From: an uncultured Neomegalonema sp.
Lineage (GTDB): Bacteria; Pseudomonadota; Alphaproteobacteria; Rhodobacterales; Rhodobacteraceae
Length of the DNA: 64,000 nucleotides
Assembly (NCBI GenBank): GCA_938008165.1
Contig: CALLLP010000010.1
Location: 124,001 to 188,000 of the forward strand
Reading direction: 5' to 3'
Part shown: positions 2,654-47,581 of the stretch, in pieces
Layout of the letters: each line of letters opens with the position of its first letter
Position numbering within the stretch: position 1 is the first letter of the stretch
Position numbers and translations under genes: made by a program
Notes under the pieces: model-generated
Told to the model about the DNA's origin: nothing
Seen by the model: the letters and a program-made list of their open reading frames with translations, nothing else
The model's database searches: none

Positions 2654-3247
2654 ATGGCACGAATGAAGTTCCTCTGTGACGCGGAGCGATGCATCGAAAG
2701 CAACGCCTTTGTCACGGCCTGTAAAAACTAGCACGAGGTGCCGTGGGGTGTTAACCGCCGCCGCGTCGTGACGATCAATGACGGCAAACCGGGCGAACGC
2801 TCGGTCTCCGTCGCCTGTATGCATTGCTCGGATGCGCCCTGCGCCGCCGTCTGTCCGGTAGATTGCTTCTACCAGTCGGAAGAAGGCGTGGTCCTGCACT
2901 CGAAAGACCTGTGCATCGGGTGCGGTTATTGCTTCTACGCCTGTCCTTTCGGCGCGCCGCAATACCCGCAGGCTGGCAATTTCGGCTCACGCGGCAAGAT
3001 GGACAAATGCACCTTCTGCGCTGGCGGACCGGAGGAAACCAACTCCGAAGCCGAGTTCCAGAAATACGGGCGCAACCGGATCGCAGAAGGAAAACTCCCG
3101 ATCTGCGCCGAAATGTGCTCGACCAAGGCACTGCTTGCGGGCGACGGAGACGATGTTTCCGACATCTATCGTGAGCGCGTTGTCGCCCGTGGTTTCGGCT
3201 CGGGTGCTTGGGGCTGGGGCACCGCTTACGGTCAAAAAGGCGCCTGA
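2654..3247 (+). pseudogene. fdoH: Formate dehydrogenase iron-sulfur (beta) subunit with in-frame amber stop and ruined first cluster motif
   Basis: An ATG at 2654, preceded by GGGGAGCAAAGA, opens a frame that reads MARMKFLCDAERCIESNAF and then hits TAG at 2729-2731 (codon 26). The same frame continues to 3247 with a convincing formate dehydrogenase electron-transfer subunit: CMHCSDAPCAAVCPVDC, CIGCGYCFYACPFGAP, CTFC and CAEMC. The family normally reads CIECNGCVTACKNEHE at the start. Here the second and third Cys are Ser and Phe, the Gly is Ala, and the Glu is the stop; each is explained by one base change. A GTG at 2738 could reopen translation, but it has no ribosome-binding site and would lose the first cluster. 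The rest of the gene shows no decay. Either this is a very recent loss of function or a local sequence error. As written, the enzyme would lack a full beta subunit. Confidence 0.85.
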
Positions 3248-3366: not shown

Positions 3367-4686
3367 ATGAGAACATATGTTCTGAGATTGCTGGCGATGA
3401 GTGTTGCGGCGGTTCTTTTCCTCTCTTCGGGCAGTTCTGTCCCGGCACAGGAAAACACCGCACCGGTAACGGTTGATCGCAGTGCAACGGGCGGTGCCCA
3501 GACCCTCGACGACATTCTGCGGCGACAGCGCGGTGAAAACATCCCCGCCGATCTCGGAAACGGCGTCACCGGCACCGGCGCACCCAGCGATGGCCCGCTT
3601 GGAAGCCAAGGGGTGCTTTCGGACAGCGAATTGTGGCGGCGCGCGCGCCAAGGACAGGCGTTCACGACCAGTTCCCAAGATCCCAATGCGGGGATTCTCG
3701 TTCAGGACGAGGGCACGCAATGGCTGGCAACCCGCCAAACGACCCTTCCCAAATATTCCACCTATGCCATTCTCGCCATGGTGATCCTGCTGACGCTGTT
3801 CATGCTGATCCGTGGGCGCATTCGCATCATGTCGGGGTGGTCCTCGATCAAGATCGAGCGGTTTACCTTCATCGAACGCTTTGGCCACTGGCTCCTCGCC
3901 ACCAGCTTTGTAATCCTTGCGATTACGGGTCTCAGCCTGCTCTTTGGCCGCGAATATGTGGTGCCCGGTCTCGACTGGATCCATGCAAAAATGAACCCGG
4001 ATGCTATCGATCCCAATTATGGCCGCGATGCCTATGCGTGGTTCGCGTTGGCGGGCAAATGGCTGCATGACAATATCGCTTGGGCCTTCATGATCGGGCT
4101 GGTCCTGATCTTTGTCATGTGGGTCTTCCGCAATATCCCGACCTGGACCGATGTGAAGTGGCTCGCCAAGGGCGGCGGCATGTTCTCCAATGCCAGCCAT
4201 CCCCATGCGCGAAAGTTCAATGCAGGTCAGAAGATCCTGTTCTGGCTGGTCATTCTGCTCGGTGGATCACTTTCCGCTTCCGGGATTTCGCTGTTGCAAC
4301 CCGGTGAATACGCCATGTTTGCCGCGACCTTTGAAAAGCTGAATATGGCCGGTGAAGCCATCGGCTACCCGCTGGGGCTGGAAACATCCCTGTCGCCTAT
4401 TGAAGAAATGCAGTATTCGCAGGTCTGGCATACGATCATTGGCGTTGCGATGATCGTCATCGTCATCGCCCATATCTATATCGGATCGGTCGGCATGCAG
4501 GGGGCCTTCTCCGCGATGGGAAGCGGCAAGGTCGATCTTAACTGGGCGCGTGAGCACCACGACCTCTGGGTCGCCAAACTCGAAAAGAAGGGTAAGGTTC
4601 CGCGTCCCGCCGGTGCCAGCAACCCCAATACGCGGACGACGATGCCCCTGCGCGCACCAAAGAAACCGACTGTTCCCGCAGAGTAA
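3367..4686 (+). CDS. fdoI: Formate dehydrogenase cytochrome b (gamma) subunit
   Basis: This 439-residue protein is the membrane anchor that takes electrons from the FeS subunit and passes them through b-type haems to quinone. Residues 1-27 form a signal peptide (VLRLLAMSVAAVLFLSS, then VPAQ). A periplasmic, low-complexity stretch of about 100 residues follows, then the four-helix FdnI/FdoI core beginning near residue 130 plus one extra leading helix. Candidate haem ligands are the His of ERFGHWLLA and the two His of the WHTIIGVAM...AHIYIG helix. E. coli FdnI is about 217 residues, so this is the long form with an N-terminal extension that is common in alphaproteobacteria. The C-terminus is Pro/Lys-rich. 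The WD40-cytochrome c gene starts 11 bases after the stop, so they are probably cotranscribed. Confidence 0.92.
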   Translation: MRTYVLRLLAMSVAAVLFLSSGSSVPAQENTAPVTVDRSATGGAQTLDDILRRQRGENIPADLGNGVTGTGAPSDGPLGSQGVLSDSELWRRARQGQAFTTSSQDPNAGILVQDEGTQWLATRQTTLPKYSTYAILAMVILLTLFMLIRGRIRIMSGWSSIKIERFTFIERFGHWLLATSFVILAITGLSLLFGREYVVPGLDWIHAKMNPDAIDPNYGRDAYAWFALAGKWLHDNIAWAFMIGLVLIFVMWVFRNIPTWTDVKWLAKGGGMFSNASHPHARKFNAGQKILFWLVILLGGSLSASGISLLQPGEYAMFAATFEKLNMAGEAIGYPLGLETSLSPIEEMQYSQVWHTIIGVAMIVIVIAHIYIGSVGMQGAFSAMGSGKVDLNWAREHHDLWVAKLEKKGKVPRPAGASNPNTRTTMPLRAPKKPTVPAE

Positions 4687-4697
4687 CAGGCCGCGCG

Positions 4698-6044
4698 ATG
4701 CGCTTTCTTGTGGTCCTTGCAGTGGCCTTGATCGGTCTTACGGGTGCCGCCAAGGCGGATGGCTATCGCATATTCGAAGGGCATGGCGGCCCCATCCGCA
4801 GCACCGCGATTTCATCGGATGGCAAGCATGCCCTGACGGCGAGCTTCGATAACTCGATCGGATACTGGAGCATCGATGACGGCGATGCCGATCCTGTATG
4901 GCTGGAAGGTCATGAAGCGGCGGCGAATACAGCGATTTTTCTGCCCAATGAGGACTATGCCCTGTCGGCAGGAGACGATTTTCGTGTGATCCTGTGGTCC
5001 CTCAAGGAGAGAGACGCCGTCGCAACTTTCGAAGGGCATAAAGGAAAAGTGCTCGACCTCGCCATCACCGCCGATGGCGCGATCGCAGCCAGTGCCGGGT
5101 GGGACGGCTCCGTCGGGTTATGGGATCTCGACAGCCGACAACCCATCGCCATGCTCACGGGCCACCGCGCGCCTGTCCAAGCCGTGCGCTTTTCGGCCGA
5201 TGGGTCGTATCTCTATTCTGCCAGCTCAGACGGAACGGTGCGCCGCTGGATCGTGGCCACCCGATCATTCGACCGGATCGAGGCCAGCCACGGGTTCGGC
5301 GTCAACCGTCTCGTCGTGAACGATGCCGCTGGCTGGTTGGCCTATGGCGCATTGGATGGCGGGGTGCGGATTATCGATATCGAAACCGGGCAGGACATCG
5401 CCGATGTAACCTCCGGCCGCCAACCCGTGCTCGCACTGGTGCTCAGCCAAGATGGCAACCGGGTCGCCATCGGTGACGGCGAAGGGTTTGTCCATGTGGT
5501 CGATGCAAAGACATGGCAAACGATCAAGGATTTCCGCGCCGTGCCGCGCGGCCCGGTCTGGGCGCTGGCCTTTGACCCAACAGGGCGTCATGTCATGGCT
5601 GGAACCATTCAGGATCACGCGGATTTCTGGCCCATCGACGAGGCCGTCTCTCTCAGCGAATCGCAGACACCGATTCGCGCCTTTCACCGCGACCCGGCGA
5701 CCATGGCGAATGGTGAACGGCAATTTGCGCGCAAATGCTCGATATGCCACACGCTCGGCGAGGATTCGGGGCGTCGGGCGGGACCGACGCTCTATCAGAT
5801 TTTTGGGCGCAAGGCGGGAACGCTGGATGGATACCAGTATTCCGACGCACTGCTGGATATCGATCTGATTTGGGACGATACCTCCCTCGATAAGCTGTTC
5901 GATATCGGCCCGGACCATTATACTCCCGGATCGAAGATGCCGATGCAGCGGATCGTTAATCGGGAAGACAGGCTCGATCTGATCGAGTATCTTAGAACTG
6001 CAACGCGCGGGACCACCCCGCAGACCGGGGAGAATATCGAATGA
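4698..6044 (+). CDS. Exported WD40 repeat-cytochrome c fusion protein
   Basis: The protein has 448 residues. Residues 1-21 are a signal peptide (FLVVLAVALIGLTG, then AKADG). Residues of about 24-325 hold WD40-type blades, seen as repeated GH...V/I...S.DG....SAS.D..V..W units (for example GHKGKVLDLAITADGAIAAS, DGSVGLWDLDS). Residues of about 335-435 are a class I cytochrome c domain: the haem motif CSICH has Cys347, Cys350 and His351, and Met414 in PGSKMPMQ is the likely sixth ligand. It is predicted to be periplasmic. Its place directly after the formate dehydrogenase gamma gene suggests a role as a dedicated electron partner or assembly scaffold; that is inference. The stop overlaps the start of the next small gene (ATGA), which indicates translational coupling. 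Confidence 0.85.
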   Translation: MRFLVVLAVALIGLTGAAKADGYRIFEGHGGPIRSTAISSDGKHALTASFDNSIGYWSIDDGDADPVWLEGHEAAANTAIFLPNEDYALSAGDDFRVILWSLKERDAVATFEGHKGKVLDLAITADGAIAASAGWDGSVGLWDLDSRQPIAMLTGHRAPVQAVRFSADGSYLYSASSDGTVRRWIVATRSFDRIEASHGFGVNRLVVNDAAGWLAYGALDGGVRIIDIETGQDIADVTSGRQPVLALVLSQDGNRVAIGDGEGFVHVVDAKTWQTIKDFRAVPRGPVWALAFDPTGRHVMAGTIQDHADFWPIDEAVSLSESQTPIRAFHRDPATMANGERQFARKCSICHTLGEDSGRRAGPTLYQIFGRKAGTLDGYQYSDALLDIDLIWDDTSLDKLFDIGPDHYTPGSKMPMQRIVNREDRLDLIEYLRTATRGTTPQTGENIE

Positions 6045-6196: not shown

Positions 6197-8245
6197 TCAG
6201 GCGGCGGTGTCCAGCAATCCGCGCCGCCGCAACAGCGCGTCCGGCTCCGGCCCACGGCCCCGAAAAGCGATATAGGCTTCTTCGGGATCCTGACGGCCAC
6301 CCGCGCTGTAGATATGATCGGCAAGGGAAGATGCCGTCGCCGGATCGAACGCGTCGCCCGCTTCCTCAAACGCCCCGAACGCATCCGCGTCCATCACCTC
6401 GGACCACATATAGCTGTAATATCCCGATGAATAGCCATCGCCGCTGAACACATGCGCGAAATGCGGGGTGCGGTGGCGCATGGCGAGACCGGCAGGCATG
6501 CCGATGCGCTCCAGCGTCATGCGCTCAAAGGCCATCGGATCGAAATCATCTGCGATCTCAGAACGATGCAGTTCAAGGTCCACAAGGGCGCTGGCAAGGT
6601 ATTGCACCGTTTCGGCCCCTTTATCGAAGGTTTGGGCACGGCGCACTTTATCCAGCAAAGCGTCCGGGATCGCCTCGCCCGTATCCGCATGGCGCGCAAA
6701 CTGGCGCAGGAGAGACGGCTCCATCAGCCAGTGTTCGTAAAGCTGGGATGGCAATTCGACAAAGTCCCGCGCGACCGACGTTCCGGCGATGCGCGGATAG
6801 GTGACATCGGACATCAAACCATGCAGGCCATGACCGAATTCATGGAACAGGGTTCGCGCGTCGTCGAAGGTCAACAGCGCCGTACCCCCGGCGGCGGGTT
6901 TGGAAAAATTCATCGTGTTGACGACGATGGGGCGCCTGTCACCCGACAGCTTATGCTGATCGCGAAAGCCGCTCATCCATGCCCCTGACCGTTTGGACGA
7001 GCGCGCGAAATAATCGCCGATGAAGATGCCCCGATGCGCTCCATCACGGTCTGTCACCTCCCATACCCGCGCGTCTGGATGGTGGCGCGGGGCGTCAGGC
7101 AGCGCCTGAAACGATAATCCGAACAGACGGTTCGCCGTGTGAAACGCGGCCTCTATCATGCGATCGAGTTGCAGATACGGCTTGACCTCTGCATCGTCGA
7201 GATCGAGGTCGCGCTTGCGGATTTTCTCGGCGTAATAGGGCCAATCCCATGGTTCGATTGCGAAATTGCCGCCCTCCTCCGCCGCGAAATTCTGCAGCTT
7301 GTCACGCTCGCGGTTTGCGCTGGCGCTGGCGCGCTCCCAGACCCGTTCGAGCAAGGCCGCGACATTTTCGGGGGCCTTGGCCATCTGATTATCGAGCTTG
7401 TAATGGGCGAAGGTGTCGAAACCGAGCAGACGCGCGCGCTCCTGCCGCAAGGCCATGGTTTCGGAGATGATCCCGGCCGTCGCCGTCTCCGCCCGCGCCT
7501 CGCCCCGGCCCGTAAAGCCGCGCCATGCCGCTTCGCGCAGGTCGCGGCGGTCGGCGAATTGCAGAAAGGGCTCGATGCTCGACCGGCTCGCCGTGATCGC
7601 GTAATGCCCCGGCTTACCGCGATCTTCCGCCGCCTTGGCCGCCGCATCGATCAGGGATTCGGGCAGGCCCGCAAGATCGGCCCGGTCCGCCATCAGGAGT
7701 TCGAGATCCGCTTCATCCGCAAGCAGGTTTTTGGAGAAAGCCGCGCCGAGGGTCGCCAGCCTGCCCATGATTTCGGTCATCCGGGTGCGTCCTGCTGTAT
7801 CCAGCCGCGCGCCCGCCCGGACGAATCCTTCGTGATAGAGCGTCAGGACGCGATCTTGTTCGGCGCTCAGAGCCAGATTCAGGCGGTTTTCATACAGGGC
7901 ATCGACCTTGGCGAACAGGCGTGCATCCATGTTGATCTCAGCCGAATGGCGGGCGAGAATCGGCGCAATCTCTGCCTCGATTGCCTGAAGCTCCGGCGAT
8001 GTATCGGCGCTGCACAGATTGAAGAACACCGCCGCCACGCGATCGAGCCGCTGGCCCGCGCACTCCATCGCCTCGATGGTATTGGCAAAACTTGGCGGAG
8101 CGGCCTCCGTGGCGATCCCCTCGATTTCGGCGCGCCATTCCTCGATGGCCTGATCGAAAGCGGGCTTGAAATGCCCGGCCTCAATGCGGTCGAAGGGCGG
8201 AATACCAAACGGTGTGGACCAGTCTTCAAGAAAGGGATTGGACAT
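6197..8245 (-). CDS. dcp: M3 family oligopeptidase (peptidyl-dipeptidase Dcp/oligopeptidase A type)
   Basis: This 682-residue zinc metallopeptidase, with no signal peptide, probably trims short peptides in the cytoplasm. The zinc motif is HEFGHGLHGLMSD with His468, Glu469 and His472; the third ligand is the Glu of the downstream ARDFVELPSQLYEHW segment. The substrate-binding GDGYSSGYYSYMWSEVMDADAF near the C-terminus is characteristic of M3A enzymes. I chose the ATG at 8245 (MSNPFLEDW) because a TCCGGAG ribosome-binding site lies just upstream and the length then matches E. coli Dcp (about 680). A longer open frame reaches 8380 but overlaps the neighbouring gene and is not needed. Dcp versus PrlC/OpdA cannot be settled by eye. 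Confidence 0.9.
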   Translation of the reverse strand: MSNPFLEDWSTPFGIPPFDRIEAGHFKPAFDQAIEEWRAEIEGIATEAAPPSFANTIEAMECAGQRLDRVAAVFFNLCSADTSPELQAIEAEIAPILARHSAEINMDARLFAKVDALYENRLNLALSAEQDRVLTLYHEGFVRAGARLDTAGRTRMTEIMGRLATLGAAFSKNLLADEADLELLMADRADLAGLPESLIDAAAKAAEDRGKPGHYAITASRSSIEPFLQFADRRDLREAAWRGFTGRGEARAETATAGIISETMALRQERARLLGFDTFAHYKLDNQMAKAPENVAALLERVWERASASANRERDKLQNFAAEEGGNFAIEPWDWPYYAEKIRKRDLDLDDAEVKPYLQLDRMIEAAFHTANRLFGLSFQALPDAPRHHPDARVWEVTDRDGAHRGIFIGDYFARSSKRSGAWMSGFRDQHKLSGDRRPIVVNTMNFSKPAAGGTALLTFDDARTLFHEFGHGLHGLMSDVTYPRIAGTSVARDFVELPSQLYEHWLMEPSLLRQFARHADTGEAIPDALLDKVRRAQTFDKGAETVQYLASALVDLELHRSEIADDFDPMAFERMTLERIGMPAGLAMRHRTPHFAHVFSGDGYSSGYYSYMWSEVMDADAFGAFEEAGDAFDPATASSLADHIYSAGGRQDPEEAYIAFRGRGPEPDALLRRRGLLDTAA

Positions 8246-21602: not shown

Positions 21603-24458
21603 ATGCCCCCTCTAGACGAGCCAAATGTCGAACGCTCGCCCAAAGTCTCGGACGAAGTTCGCTGTACGACCTGCTATATGTGCGCATGTCGCTGTGGCAT
21701 CAATGTGCATATCCGCGACGGTCTGGTCCGCTATATCGAGGGGAACAAGAATCATCCCGTAAACAAGGGCGTTCTCTGCGCCAAGGGCAGCGCGGGGATC
21801 ATGCAGCATTATTCTCCCGCCCGCCTGATGACCCCGCTGAAACGGGTCGGGCCGCGAGGCTCCGGCGAGTTTGAACCGATCTCGTGGGAAGAAGCGCTGC
21901 AAACCGCCGTATCGTGGCTCAAACCGATCCGCGAGACCGACCCCTCGAAGCTGGCCTTCTTCACGGGGCGCGATCAATCGCAGAGCTTTACGGGCCTTTG
22001 GGCGCAAAGCTATGGCACACCCAATTATGCGGCCCATGGCGGCTTTTGCTCGGTGAATATGGCCGCCGCCGGGATCTATACGATGGGGGGCGCGTTCTGG
22101 GAATTCGGCTCGCCGGACTGGGAACGCACGAAGATGTTCATGATTTTTGGCGTGGCCGAGGATCACGATTCCAATCCGATCAAGATGGGTCTGGGTCGCC
22201 TGAAAGAGCGCGGCGCGAAGGTGGTGGCGGTCAATCCCGTCCGCACCGGCTATAACGCCATTGCCGATGAATGGGTCGGGGTGACGCCGGGCACGGATGG
22301 CCTGTTTATCCTTGCGCTGGTGCATGAATTGATCCGCACCGGGCATGTCGATCTCGACTACTTGCTCCGCTATACGAATGCCCCGTGGCTGGTGATCCGC
22401 GATCCGGGCGCGGCGGATGACGGCATGTTCGCGCGGGACCATAACGGCAATACATTGGTTCTGAACCGCCATGCGAATGTCGTGCAAAACGCCAAGACCG
22501 CCCGCAAGAACGCGGCCCTGAAAGGGCAAGCGCGGCTGGAGGACGGGCGCGTCGCGGTTCCGGTCTTTCAGATCATGGCCGAGAAGTATCTCGACGATGA
22601 ATACTCTCCCGATTCCGTCGCCGAAAAGACGGGGGTGGATGCCGCGACGATCCGGCGGCTGGCGGCGGAGCTGGCCTATACCGCGTTTGAAGAAGCCATC
22701 GAAATCGACCAACCCTGGACCGATGTATACGGCGAGAAGCACGCGACCATGACGGGCCGTCCGGTCAGCTTCCACGCCATGCGCGGCATCAGCGCGCATT
22801 CCAATGGCTTCCAGACCTGTCGCGCGATCCATGTGCTGCAATTGCTGCTCGGTTCAGTCGAATGCCCCGGCGGCTTTCGCTTCAAGCCACCCTACCCCAA
22901 GCCTATGGAAGCGCATCCCAAACCCCATAGCGGATACGCACCCAATTCTCCGCTCGACGGTCCCCATCTGGGCTATCCGCGCGGCCCCGAAGACATGATG
23001 ATCAATGACGATGGCAGCCCAAGGCGCATCGACAAGGCATTCTCATGGGATGCGCCGATGTCGGCCCATGGCATGATGCATATGGTCATTTCCAATGCGG
23101 TGGCGGGCGATCCCTACAAGATCGATACATTGTTCCTGTATATGGCGAACATGTCGTGGAACAGCTCGATGAATACGCGCGGCGTGATGGACATGCTGGA
23201 ACAGCGCGATGCCAATGGCGACTATACGATCCCACATATCATCTATTCCGATGCCTATTCGTCGGAAATGGTCGCCTATGCGGATCTTGTCTTTCCCGAT
23301 ACGACCTATTTGGAACGGCATGACTGTATCTCGCTGCTCGACCGGCCAATCTGCGAGGCCGATGCCGCCGCCGATGCGATCCGCTGGCCCGTAGTCGACC
23401 CCAAGACTCAAGGCGTCGGTCGCGATGTACAGGGCTTTCAGTCGACACTATGCGCCTTGGGCGCCCGGCTGGGCCTGCCCGCTTTCACAAACGAGGATGG
23501 CTCGGCCAAGTACAAGGACTACGCCGATTACATCGTCAATCACGAGCGCAAGCCCGGAATCGGTCCGCTAGCCGGATTCCGGGGCGAGGACGGCACCGAA
23601 AGCGGACGGGGCAAACCGAACCCCGATCAGCTTCAACGCTATATCGACAATGGCGGCTTCTGGCTGGAACATGTGCCGGACGAGGCGGCCTATTATAAAT
23701 TCGCGAACCAAGCCTATCAGGATTGGGCCGTTGGTCTGGGATTCTTCGACGAGCCGCAGCCTTACACGATGCAGCTTTATGTCGAGACCATCCAGAAATT
23801 CCGCCTCGCCGCCGAGGGCCATGGCGACCGCCAACCCCCGGACCATATGCGCGACCGGGTGCGCAGTACCTTCGACCCGCTACCGATCTGGTATGCGCCG
23901 TTCGAGGAAACCATGGTCGATCAGGCCGAATACCCCCTCCACGCAATCACCCAGCGCCCGGCGGCGATGTACCATTCATGGGGATCGCAAAACGCATGGC
24001 TGCGCCAGATTCACGGGCGCAACCCGCTCTATGTCCCCGGTGAGCTATGCGATGAGCATGGGCTGGAGGATGGCGATTGGGCGCATGTTTCCTCGCATCA
24101 CGGTCGCATCACGGTGCCTGTCGCGCGGATGGATGCGGTAAACGGCAAAACACTGTGGACGTGGAACGCCATCGGCAAGCGAGCAGGCGCATGGGCGCTG
24201 TCCCCCGATGCGCCGGAGGCGACGAAAGGCTTTCTGCTCAATCACCTGATCCATGAATTGCTGCCCGAAAAAGGCGACGGGCTGCGCTGGGGCAATTCCG
24301 ACCCGATCACCGGACAGGCGGCATGGTACGATCTGCGCGTGAAGATCGAAAAGGCCGATGGTCCCCCGGAGATGACAAAACCCAGCTTCGAAGCCCAGAA
24401 AGGCCCCGCCCCCGAAGGGCCAAGCACTGTCGCCTATGGCGAGGAGTGGGGGAAGTGA
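21603..24458 (+). CDS. soeA: SoeA-like sulfite dehydrogenase, molybdopterin catalytic subunit
   Basis: This 951-residue bis-MGD oxidoreductase has an N-terminal [4Fe-4S] motif with Cys24, Cys27, Cys31 and Cys59 (TTCYMCACRCG...GVLCAKG). The Mo ligand is probably the Cys in AAHGGFCSVNMAA. No Tat signal is present, so it should face the cytoplasm, as known for SoeABC (oxidation of sulfite to sulfate with electrons passed to quinone). The neighbouring FeS and NrfD/DmsC-type subunits complete a SoeABC-like complex. The same superfamily includes formate dehydrogenases and polysulfide/thiosulfate reductases, so the substrate is inferred from the overall family resemblance and operon, not proved. About 270 bases separate it from the divergent regulator. 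Confidence 0.75.
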   Translation: MPPLDEPNVERSPKVSDEVRCTTCYMCACRCGINVHIRDGLVRYIEGNKNHPVNKGVLCAKGSAGIMQHYSPARLMTPLKRVGPRGSGEFEPISWEEALQTAVSWLKPIRETDPSKLAFFTGRDQSQSFTGLWAQSYGTPNYAAHGGFCSVNMAAAGIYTMGGAFWEFGSPDWERTKMFMIFGVAEDHDSNPIKMGLGRLKERGAKVVAVNPVRTGYNAIADEWVGVTPGTDGLFILALVHELIRTGHVDLDYLLRYTNAPWLVIRDPGAADDGMFARDHNGNTLVLNRHANVVQNAKTARKNAALKGQARLEDGRVAVPVFQIMAEKYLDDEYSPDSVAEKTGVDAATIRRLAAELAYTAFEEAIEIDQPWTDVYGEKHATMTGRPVSFHAMRGISAHSNGFQTCRAIHVLQLLLGSVECPGGFRFKPPYPKPMEAHPKPHSGYAPNSPLDGPHLGYPRGPEDMMINDDGSPRRIDKAFSWDAPMSAHGMMHMVISNAVAGDPYKIDTLFLYMANMSWNSSMNTRGVMDMLEQRDANGDYTIPHIIYSDAYSSEMVAYADLVFPDTTYLERHDCISLLDRPICEADAAADAIRWPVVDPKTQGVGRDVQGFQSTLCALGARLGLPAFTNEDGSAKYKDYADYIVNHERKPGIGPLAGFRGEDGTESGRGKPNPDQLQRYIDNGGFWLEHVPDEAAYYKFANQAYQDWAVGLGFFDEPQPYTMQLYVETIQKFRLAAEGHGDRQPPDHMRDRVRSTFDPLPIWYAPFEETMVDQAEYPLHAITQRPAAMYHSWGSQNAWLRQIHGRNPLYVPGELCDEHGLEDGDWAHVSSHHGRITVPVARMDAVNGKTLWTWNAIGKRAGAWALSPDAPEATKGFLLNHLIHELLPEKGDGLRWGNSDPITGQAAWYDLRVKIEKADGPPEMTKPSFEAQKGPAPEGPSTVAYGEEWGK

Positions 24459-24486
24459 ACAGCGACATGCTCGAAGGTCGAAAACC

Positions 24487-25362
24487 GTGAAATCGATCAC
24501 GCATCAGATCACCGGCTATGGCGGTGTCAAACTGCATGTGCGCGAGGCGGGTAATCCCGACGGCCCGCCGCTGTTGCTGATCCATGGCTGGTCTCAGCAT
24601 CATCTGAGTTGGTCAAAGCAGTTCAATGGCTCGCTGGCCAAACGCTTTCGCCTGATCGCGCCGGATTTGCGCGGCCATGGCGCTTCTGACAAACCGCTGG
24701 AGCCGCATCACTATGACTGCGCCGCCCCTTGGGCCGATGATATCCGGGCGGTGATACGCGACTTGTCGCTGGAAAACCCGCTGCTTGTCGGGTGGTCGAT
24801 GGGTGGACGATCCGTGATGGATTATCTGTCGATCCATGGCGACGATGCGATTTCCGGCGCGGCCCTTATCGGAGCGTCGGTCATGGCGCCGGGTGACCCC
24901 GAAGTGCTGACCGAACGCAGCCCGGCGGTAAAGGCCGAAGGCATGTATTCGCTCGATCAAGGCGTCGCGCTGACCTCGACCATCGCTTTTCTGCGCGCCT
25001 GCTTTGCCGCGCCGCTTTCAAAGCAGGATCTGGCACTGATGACCGGGTTCAACATGCTTGTGCCCCCCCAAATCCGCAAAGCCGCCCGCCTGCGCATCGG
25101 CAATGGTGAGGATGCGGCGATGCAACACATGACCAAGCCCGTCGCGATCTTCTGGGGCGAAGCGGAGAAAGTATGCTCCCGCGCCATGTTCGATGCGACG
25201 ACCGCCGCCCTGCCGGATGCCGCCGTCTTCACCTATCCCGGTGCAGGCCATGCGCCTTTCTGGGAGCGCCCGGACGCTTTCGACACCGATCTCGCCAGTT
25301 TCGCCGATACCGCTTTCACGCGCATTGCACCCCTGCAAGCCGCGCAAGGAGCCATTGCATGA
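24487..25362 (+). CDS. Alpha/beta hydrolase embedded in the soe-like operon
   Basis: The 291-residue product starts at GTG 24487, eight bases after GAAGGT; the soeA stop is 28 bases upstream. The fold signatures are LLLIHGWSQHHLSW (oxyanion loop), LVGWSMGGRSVM (nucleophile Ser) and GAGHAPFWERP (catalytic His). The usual acid position in GE.D reads GEAEKV, so the acid is Glu or lies elsewhere. It resembles small haloperoxidase/esterase-like hydrolases with no signal peptide. Its stop overlaps the soeB start (ATGA), so it is cotranslated with a redox complex. A maturation, cofactor or substrate-release role is possible but speculative. Confidence 0.82.
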   Translation: MKSITHQITGYGGVKLHVREAGNPDGPPLLLIHGWSQHHLSWSKQFNGSLAKRFRLIAPDLRGHGASDKPLEPHHYDCAAPWADDIRAVIRDLSLENPLLVGWSMGGRSVMDYLSIHGDDAISGAALIGASVMAPGDPEVLTERSPAVKAEGMYSLDQGVALTSTIAFLRACFAAPLSKQDLALMTGFNMLVPPQIRKAARLRIGNGEDAAMQHMTKPVAIFWGEAEKVCSRAMFDATTAALPDAAVFTYPGAGHAPFWERPDAFDTDLASFADTAFTRIAPLQAAQGAIA

Positions 25363-26105
25363 CCCAACTGCCCGAAACAACCGATCGCAAGCTCGGCCTC
25401 GTCATCGATCTCGATACCTGTGTCGGATGTCATGCCTGCGTCATTTCCTGCAAGGAATGGAATACGGGCGGCTATGGCGCGCCATTGGCCGATACGGATG
25501 CCTATGGCGAAGACCCCTCCGGCACCTTCCTGAACCGGGTGCATACCTTTGAGGTCAAGCCCGCGAACAAGCCCGCGATGGTCACGCATTTTCCAAAATC
25601 CTGCCTGCATTGCGAGGATGCGCCCTGCGTCACCGTCTGCCCCACCGGCGCCAGCTTCAAGCGCGCCGAAGACGGGATCGTTCTGGTGCATGAGGATCAC
25701 TGCATCGGCTGCGGTCTGTGTTCCTGGGCCTGCCCCTATGGGGCGCGCGAAATGGATGCGGTCGAGAAGGTGATGAAGAAATGCACGCTCTGCGTTGACC
25801 GCATCTATAACGAGAATATCCCCGAAGAGGACCGCGTTCCCTCCTGCGTGCGGACCTGCCCCGCCGGAGCGCGCCATTTCGGCGATCTGGGCGATGCGCA
25901 GAGCGATGTGTCGAAACTGGTGGCCGAACGCGGCGGTTTTGATCTCATGCCCGAGCAAGGCACCAAGCCCGTCAACAAATACCTGCCGCCTCGCCCCAAA
26001 CAGCAGCAGATGGCGGATGAACCCGTCAACCTCGCCGCCCTCGCCGAACCCAAAGCCACGGGCTTTCTGGGCTGGCTCGACGGCGCACTCGAAAGGCTCG
26101 GCTGA
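25359..26105 (+). CDS. soeB: SoeB-like iron-sulfur subunit
   Basis: This 248-residue electron-transfer subunit has four cysteine clusters: CVGCHACVISC, CLHCEDAPCVTVC, CIGCGLCSWAC and CTLC...CVRTC. These would bind four [4Fe-4S] clusters (or three plus one [3Fe-4S]), as in DmsB/SoeB proteins. It should carry electrons from SoeA to the SoeC membrane subunit. The start overlaps the hydrolase stop, and the stop shares one base with the soeC start. The C-terminus (NKYLPPRPK, then an Ala/Glu-rich tail) matches alphaproteobacterial SoeB proteins. Confidence 0.85.
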   Translation: MTQLPETTDRKLGLVIDLDTCVGCHACVISCKEWNTGGYGAPLADTDAYGEDPSGTFLNRVHTFEVKPANKPAMVTHFPKSCLHCEDAPCVTVCPTGASFKRAEDGIVLVHEDHCIGCGLCSWACPYGAREMDAVEKVMKKCTLCVDRIYNENIPEEDRVPSCVRTCPAGARHFGDLGDAQSDVSKLVAERGGFDLMPEQGTKPVNKYLPPRPKQQQMADEPVNLAALAEPKATGFLGWLDGALERLG

Positions 26106-27019
26106 TGCATCCCGCATATTCCGTCATCTTCTTTACCGTTGCATCCGGCGCAGGGCTTGGACTGATCGCCTTTATGGGTCTTGGCGCGCTGCGGATCGAC
26201 GAAATGTCGACCGGCTTTTTATTGACCGCCTTCGGGATCGGCTTTGCCTTGTCGGTTGCAGGATTGCTGTCCTCGACCTTCCATCTCGGCCATCCTGAGC
26301 GGGCGTGGCGCGCTTTTTCGCAATGGCGCAGTTCATGGCTATCGCGGGAGGGCGTGCTGGCCGTCGTCGCGCTGATCGTTGCCGCGATTTTCGCCGGGAT
26401 GTGGCTGTTTCTCGATCTCTCCTCGGCGTTTTTCGGGGTCGCGACGGCTGTTCTGGCCATGCTGACGGTCTGGGCGACGGGGATGATCTACGCGCAGATC
26501 AAGGCAGTCGATCTCTGGCATCGCTGGCTGACGCCCGTTTGCTATCTGCTGTTCAGCATTGCGGGAGGGGTGGTCCTGTTCCTTTTTGTCCATGCACTGA
26601 TGACCGGCAAGGCGGGCTGGGAATTATCGAGCGTTGCGATGATTGCCCTGCTGGTCGCTTGGGCGGTCAAATTATTTTGGTGGCGGGGCAGCGAAAATAC
26701 ACCGACCTCGACCCCCGACACCGCGACCGGGTTGGGCCATCTGGGCAAGGTGCGCCTGCTGGAGCGGCCCCATACGGGATCGAATTATCTTCTCAAGGAA
26801 ATGGGCTTTCAGATCGGCCGAAAGCACGCCAAGAAATTGCGCATGATTTCGGTCATGCTGGGGGCTATCTTGCCGATCCTGTTGATCCTGTTGGCGATTC
26901 CTGCGCCGCTTGACGTTCTGTGGCTCGGCTTGGCCGTGCTGGCGCATCTGTCGGGTATGCTGGTCGAGCGCTGGCTTTTCTTCGCCGAAGCGCGCCATTC
27001 GGTGATGGCATTCTACTGA
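26105..27019 (+). CDS. soeC: SoeC-like membrane anchor (DmsC/NrfD type)
   Basis: The 304-residue protein has about eight hydrophobic helices. It contains the DmsC-type segment STFHLGHPERAWRAFSQWRSSWLSREG, where a conserved Glu/His and SWLSRE are characteristic. It should donate electrons to quinone. It follows soeB with the stop and start codons overlapping by one base (TGATG). glnE starts 39 bases after its stop. Confidence 0.88.
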   Translation: MHPAYSVIFFTVASGAGLGLIAFMGLGALRIDEMSTGFLLTAFGIGFALSVAGLLSSTFHLGHPERAWRAFSQWRSSWLSREGVLAVVALIVAAIFAGMWLFLDLSSAFFGVATAVLAMLTVWATGMIYAQIKAVDLWHRWLTPVCYLLFSIAGGVVLFLFVHALMTGKAGWELSSVAMIALLVAWAVKLFWWRGSENTPTSTPDTATGLGHLGKVRLLERPHTGSNYLLKEMGFQIGRKHAKKLRMISVMLGAILPILLILLAIPAPLDVLWLGLAVLAHLSGMLVERWLFFAEARHSVMAFY

Positions 27020-46249: not shown

Positions 46250-47581
46250 ATGACGGTGAACTGGTCTGCCGATAGCTGGAAAAACCACACGGCCTTGCAG
46301 ATGCCAGACTATGAGGACAAAGCGGCGCTCGATCGCGTGACCGCCAAGCTCGCCTCATATCCACCGCTCGTATTTGCAGGGGAGGCCCGCGCGCTCAAGG
46401 CACGGTTGGGCGATGTCGCACGGGGCGAGGCGTTTCTGATGCAGGGCGGCGATTGCGCCGAAAGCTTTGCCGAATTCTCAGGCGACATGATCCGCGACAC
46501 GTTCAAGGTGATGCTGCAAATGGCGGTCACGCTGACCTTTGCCACGCGTAAGCCGGTTGTGAAAGTGGGCCGCATGGCGGGCCAATTCGCCAAGCCCCGA
46601 TCCGCCCCGACGGAGACGAAAGACGGCGTGGAATTGCCCAGCTATCGTGGTGATATCATCAACGAACTGGACTTCACCCCCGAAGCCCGCCGCCCGAATC
46701 CCGACAAGATGCTCGAAGCGTATCTTCATGCAGCCGCAACGCTCAACCTGCTGCGCGCCTTTGCGACGGGAGGCTATGCCGATCTGGAGCGGGTTACGGA
46801 CTGGAATCTCGATTTCGCCAAGGACGAACGCTATGCCCAGACCGCCCAGCGCGTTTCGCAGGCGGTTGCCTTCATGAAAGCCTGCGGCGTCGATGCCGAT
46901 ACGGCGCAAGAAATTGCGACAACCGAATATTACACGTCGCATGAAGCGCTGTTACTGCCCTATGAGCAAGCGCTGGCGCGGGTGGATTCGACCACCGGCG
47001 ATACGGTCGCCTGCTCCGCGCATATGCTGTGGATCGGGGATCGCACCCGCCAGCCCGACGGTGCCCATGTCGAATTCTGTCGCGGGGTCGTCAATCCCAT
47101 CGGCGTAAAATGCGGCCCATCGATGACGGTGGAAGACCTCAAGCAACTGATGGGCATCCTCAACCCCGAAAACGAGCCGGGTCGCCTGACGCTGATCAAT
47201 CGCTTCGGCGCGGGCAAGGTCGGCGATCATTTGCCCAAGCTGATCGAGACGGTCAAGGCCGAGGGCGCGAATGTCGTCTGGTGCTGTGACCCGATGCACG
47301 GCAATACCGTCAAGGCCGAGAGCGGCTACAAAACCCGCCCCTTCGAGCGCATCTTGCAGGAAACCCGCGAATTCATCGATACATGTCAGGAGCAGGATGT
47401 CTATCCCGGCGGCGTGCATCTGGAGATGACGGGCAAGGACGTGACCGAATGCACCGGCGGGATGCGCGAGGTGACCGATGCGGGCCTGTCCTCGCGTTAT
47501 CACACTGCCTGCGACCCGCGCCTGAATGCCTCGCAATCCTTGGAAGTGGCTTTCCTGATCGCGGAAGAAATGGAACGCTAG
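46250..47581 (+). CDS. aroG: 3-deoxy-7-phosphoheptulonate synthase, class II
   Basis: The first step of the shikimate pathway condenses phosphoenolpyruvate with erythrose 4-phosphate. The 443-residue plant-type enzyme has [14 protein letters not shown] (metal-ligand Cys region), [32 protein letters not shown] and [24 protein letters not shown], all class II signatures. I chose ATG 46250 ([10 protein letters not shown]); an ATG at 46235 would add five residues. Feedback control cannot be judged from the sequence. The 209-base region after the stop contains two hairpins. Confidence 0.95.

Follow-up and report, generated by a model that had tools for sequence, protein, structure and literature searches.

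The window analyzed here, a stretch of 64,000 nucleotides, lies almost at the very end of the 188,008-base contig C10 of an uncultured Neomegalonema sp. and opens on a formate dehydrogenase operon whose genes all lie on the forward strand. The FDH3-type alpha gene (fdoG-like; positions 2 to 2638) starts upstream of the window on the same contig and encodes the Molybdopterin and Molydop_binding Pfam domains, and the gamma gene (3367 to 4686) encodes a cytochrome b561-type membrane subunit (TIGR01583, 130 bits versus a cutoff of 115.85; PF01292). Both frames are open, in agreement with the initial annotation, which had described the neighboring subunit genes as intact. The beta gene lies between them, in the gene order of an FDH3 operon. 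From the ATG at 2654, its frame reads MARMKFLCDAERCIESNAFVTACKN, a 5' part of 25 codons that includes an altered cysteine loop (2654 to 2728), and then runs into an in-frame TAG (2729 to 2731), where the relatives examined carry a Glu codon. The remainder of the gene (2732 to 3247) is strongly conserved and open again to 3244, with the terminal stop codon at 3245 to 3247; its first possible restart codon is the GTG at 2738. Instead of an uninterrupted frame of ∼197 codons, the window thus holds a beta gene broken at codon 26. Directly after the gamma gene lies a frame for a WD40-repeat protein with a C-terminal cytochrome c domain (4698 to 6044). Eight genus relatives have homologues of this protein in the stretches that carry FDH3, and it is a possible electron partner.

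The beta gene encodes an FDH3-type formate dehydrogenase beta subunit (NCBIfam NF038355) and not an Escherichia coli-type FdoH. The part after the stop (2738 to 3244) scored 296.8 bits against NF038355 (cutoff of 240), and the complete protein of a genus relative, G010, scored 348.7 bits. Against TIGR01582, the model of the E. coli-type FDH-N/O beta subunit, the window part and the intact relative reached only 48.7 and 57.3 bits, respectively, far below the cutoff of 334.7. Because the first cutoff was exceeded and the second was missed by a wide margin, the name FdoH (Fdo/Fdn type) initially given to this gene is loose, and we replaced it with FDH3 beta.

Three codons of the beta gene set it apart from its relatives: Ser16 and Phe19, which replace the second and third cysteines of the N-terminal CxxCxxCxxxC motif, and the TAG at codon 26. 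In this motif, cysteines are the ligands of an iron-sulfur cluster, a role that Ser and Phe would not fill. We surveyed the loop across 110 loci (30 + 80, some of which are the same contig counted twice) and found CIECNACVTACKNE in 108, CIECNGCVTACKNE in 1, and CIESNAFVTACKN followed by the stop in 1, the window's own. The Cys motif and the Glu were kept in all of the other loci examined (109/109, with the same double counting of some contigs). The amber stop and the altered iron-sulfur loop that had been read from this DNA are therefore both present. Four differences from the family form had been proposed, and three of them stand (Cys to Ser, Cys to Phe, and Glu to stop). The fourth, Gly to Ala, is no change, since 108 of the 109 other loci have Ala at position 18; the alignment of homologues that had been suggested as a check likewise found Ser16, Phe19, and TAG26 to be absent from relatives and Ala18 to be shared with them. 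It had also been proposed that each difference requires a single base change. This is uncertain for Phe19, because its codon, TTT, is a single change away from the TGT of 3 genus relatives but two changes away from the TGC of the other 7 (10 compared).

Compared with ten genus relatives, the only private bases in the altered stretch are 2699, 2709, and 2729, each found in 0/10 relatives. Together they define a span of 31 bases (2699 to 2729) that contains the Ser and Phe codons at the two motif Cys positions and the first base of the TAG, so the tight cluster of about 35 bases that had been described is real in this sequence. Three substitutions placed at random fell within 31 of the gene's 594 bases in 0.8% of trials; for the fdoGHI span of 4,949 bases, the corresponding probability was ∼1.1 × 10−4. 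Both values are post hoc and take no account of the invariance of all three affected residues. A search of 14 genus genomes for the 21-base pattern over 2696 to 2716, allowing up to 2 mismatches, found it in this genome and in none of the other 13. Of the genomes examined, only this assembly carries the cluster, which touches only residues that are invariant in the relatives compared. An apparent second case of an early-ending FDH3 beta gene, in G002, was rejected: the record reads N there, which explains the early end. The ten relatives share only ∼71 to 82% DNA identity with the window over the 3.5-kb locus, indicating that a near-identical strain is absent from the comparison.

The rest of the beta gene is intact, as had been stated initially. 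Among 189 beta-gene columns that are invariant in eight other genus genomes, this genome is private at codons 16, 19, and 26 and at no others, and downstream of the stop it is private at 0 of 164. Relative to genome G009, 53 of 59 base differences in the beta gene lie at third codon positions, and only five codons differ nonsynonymously, three of them in the cluster. This excess of third-position differences indicates that purifying selection acted on the gene up to the time of the change, and outside the cluster the alignments give no sign of relaxed selection. The neighboring genes were scored in the same manner. In fdoG, this genome has 6 private residues in 798 to 801 invariant columns, all conservative; leave-one-out counts in eight relatives ranged from 2 to 17, so the alpha gene likewise shows no sign of relaxed selection. 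In the gamma gene, 9 of 180 invariant columns are private, three of them with nonconservative residues, the second highest count of nine genomes (others, 0 to 13). This count might point to relaxed selection across the operon and leans toward a real loss; however, we give it little weight, since gamma is the more variable gene in all nine genomes.

The quality of the assembly bears on how the cluster is to be read. The genome is a fragmented draft, probably metagenome derived, of 56 contigs and 3.14 Mb (85% complete, 2.2% contaminated). The altered site lies ∼61 kb from the nearest contig end and contains no N. We scanned for interrupted genes from the relatives' side, requiring 70% identity or more on each side of a stop; the relatives' frames cover ∼47 kb of the window at >60% identity. 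The scan returned 52 stop rows and 4 frame-change rows for the window. Among the stop rows, 2729 alone breaks a real gene, and the others lie in shadow frames of better-scoring genes; the four frame-change rows, or their neighbors, likewise lie inside better-scoring genes in another frame or strand. The stop at 2729 was supported by 10 relatives, compared to 4 for the next best row in the window and 5 for the best row in other stretches (position 8069 of locus L261, opposite a scored gene). As far as relatives cover the window, it contains no other interrupted gene.

Private residues gave a similar picture. Across 44 scored frames (28 from the window, 2 from just upstream of it, and 14 from another contig, C5:45001-65000), comprising 11,676 invariant columns and 291 private residues, there was no private loss of a cysteine; the 25 codons before the beta-gene stop were too short to be scored and do not enter this count. 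With the beta gene read over its stop, the 28 genes scored in the window alone comprised 8,029 columns, with 169 private residues. A further locus, L260 (C1:150001-170000), had too few relatives and yielded no scorable gene. A few other genes also have dense clusters of private residues, and similar clusters occur in L261, in each case without stops or Cys losses. One such run lies at 46820 to 47003, within a class II 3-deoxy-d-arabino-heptulosonate 7-phosphate (DAHP) synthase gene (TIGR01358; 46199 to 47581), and was found against genus members. We rejected it as an error of the same kind: since its frame is open, it probably reflects natural divergence or recombination. Reassignment of a stop codon, or widespread in-frame stops, was also rejected. 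The window and two other stretches of 20 kb contained 17 pairs of neighboring same-strand frames, and 11 pairs shared a reading frame. Nine of these 11 were inspected singly and proved to be ordinary gene ends or shadow frames; the remaining two have gaps of 33 and 36 bases. Because the same assembly looks clean elsewhere, errors of this kind are evidently not common in it, which counts somewhat against an artifact.

Nevertheless, we consider it probable that the 31-base cluster arose as a local error of consensus calling or assembly and that FDH3 beta is an ordinary, working gene in this organism. The likeliest reading is a consensus error, given that the draft is fragmented, that the change is shared by no relative, and that the gene is otherwise fully conserved. 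A single local cause is needed, and decay over time is disfavored. Such a cause could be, for example, a thinly covered stretch in which the consensus would have been taken from the error-rich end of one read; coverage at the cluster is presumably thin. Of the three options raised initially, a local consensus error thus fits best and a single very recent event comes second, while an internal start fares poorly.

A real and very recent inactivation, in which one complex mutation event altered several bases of the loop at once, is possible, though we hold it to be clearly the less likely of these two. The allele would have spread because another formate dehydrogenase covers the need, and FDH3 would then make a peptide of at most 25 residues in place of the beta subunit, leaving alpha unwired to the membrane subunit. 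A gene that is pristine except for one cluster is consistent with a single event, and the cleanness of the rest of the window and the high gamma count also speak for a real event. FDH3 is, moreover, dispensable in the group, because two genus members and many genomes of the order are without a close copy: no close FDH3 beta was found in G008 (68% complete) or G013 (91% complete), and at an E value of 1 × 10−70 none was found in 188 of 390 genomes sampled in the order, the other 202 having one. In addition, this genome encodes a separate formate dehydrogenase alpha subunit on another contig (C47:42253-44298, locus L223; TIGR01591, 744 bits versus a cutoff of 666), so formate oxidation need not rest on the window operon alone and a real loss of FDH3 could be tolerated. 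As a separate observation, the interval 21603 to 27019 of the window contains a second molybdopterin oxidoreductase gene, an NrfC/TtrB-like iron-sulfur subunit gene (25173 to 26105), and additional open frames; no NCBIfam cutoff was reached there.

Several results argue against such an event. For gene conversion or template switching, we found no donor of at least 12 bases on either strand within 84 kb of the contig and none of 10 to 11 bases within 3 kb. At the sensitivity of BLAST, the genome contains no second copy of the altered loop, the only other match being 43 bases of a paralogue that align to window positions 2814 to 2856. The 32-base altered stretch likewise had no exact match in viral contigs. 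All three changes fall at invariant residues, which a single random event would not need to do. Finally, because neither the alpha gene nor the rest of the beta gene shows relaxation, a real event would have to be very young. As a base rate for such stops, among the matches listed in the order search an internal stop occurred in this genome only, and every other FDH3 beta gene among the genus matches listed was free of one.

An altered but functional protein, made by read-through of the TAG or by restart at the GTG at 2738 and without a complete first Cys motif, is very improbable. The 169-residue frame downstream of the stop is fully conserved and still scores above the FDH3 beta cutoff, which speaks for such a protein. 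A search for amber suppressor tRNA genes had been suggested; none with a CUA anticodon was present among the 31 tRNA genes found in this genome (85% complete), and a read-through product would still be without two of the motif cysteines. Past the stop, the first start codon is the GTG at 2738, which is a Val codon in relatives. No Shine-Dalgarno-like sequence occurs at the usual distance before it (preceding bases, CTAGCACGAG), and the predicted product would lack the whole N-terminal Cys motif. The altered form was found in 0/109 other loci examined. We give the least credence of all to the version in which the sequence is real and a short beta protein from this GTG, without the first Cys motif, is still under selection; FDH3 would then operate with a cut-down electron wire, or the fragment would serve another partner. 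Stepwise pseudogene decay, which could account for a stop codon and two lost motif cysteines, is just as improbable as read-through or restart: the private residues of the beta gene (3/189) all lie in the cluster, no radical one occurs in 801 fdoG columns, and chance clustering of this tightness has a probability of ∼0.008 in the gene and 1 × 10−4 over the operon. The initial judgment that random decay explains clustered changes in an otherwise intact gene poorly is consistent with these values.

The two leading readings differ in what follows from them. If the cluster is an error, it serves as a caution: an annotation pipeline would label the enzyme nonfunctional, and membrane formate oxidation would be missing from a metabolic reconstruction of the species. 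If it is real, the locus would represent the loss of a respiratory enzyme in a single step, so recent that no further decay has set in, which would be useful for the study of clustered mutation and would not constitute a new kind of system.

Among known systems, the window gene is closest to the FDH3 beta family (NF038355), with which it shares its place between the alpha and gamma genes and a downstream part that scores above the cutoff. With the stop read over, it is 98% identical to the FDH3 beta protein of G010. It differs from the family in that two of the four cysteines of CxxCxxCxxxC are missing and a TAG follows. Among solved structures, the intact relative aligns over 193 residues with chain B of PDB 9vap, a 4Fe-4S dicluster domain-containing protein (E = 6.8 × 10−100); the solved chain has the complete loop CIECNGCVTACKNE, whereas the loop of the window is incomplete. 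The beta subunit of E. coli Fdn (PDB 1kqf chain B, TIGR01582), a multicluster electron transfer subunit of the same broad kind, gave only a weak match (44 bits over residues 52 to 124).
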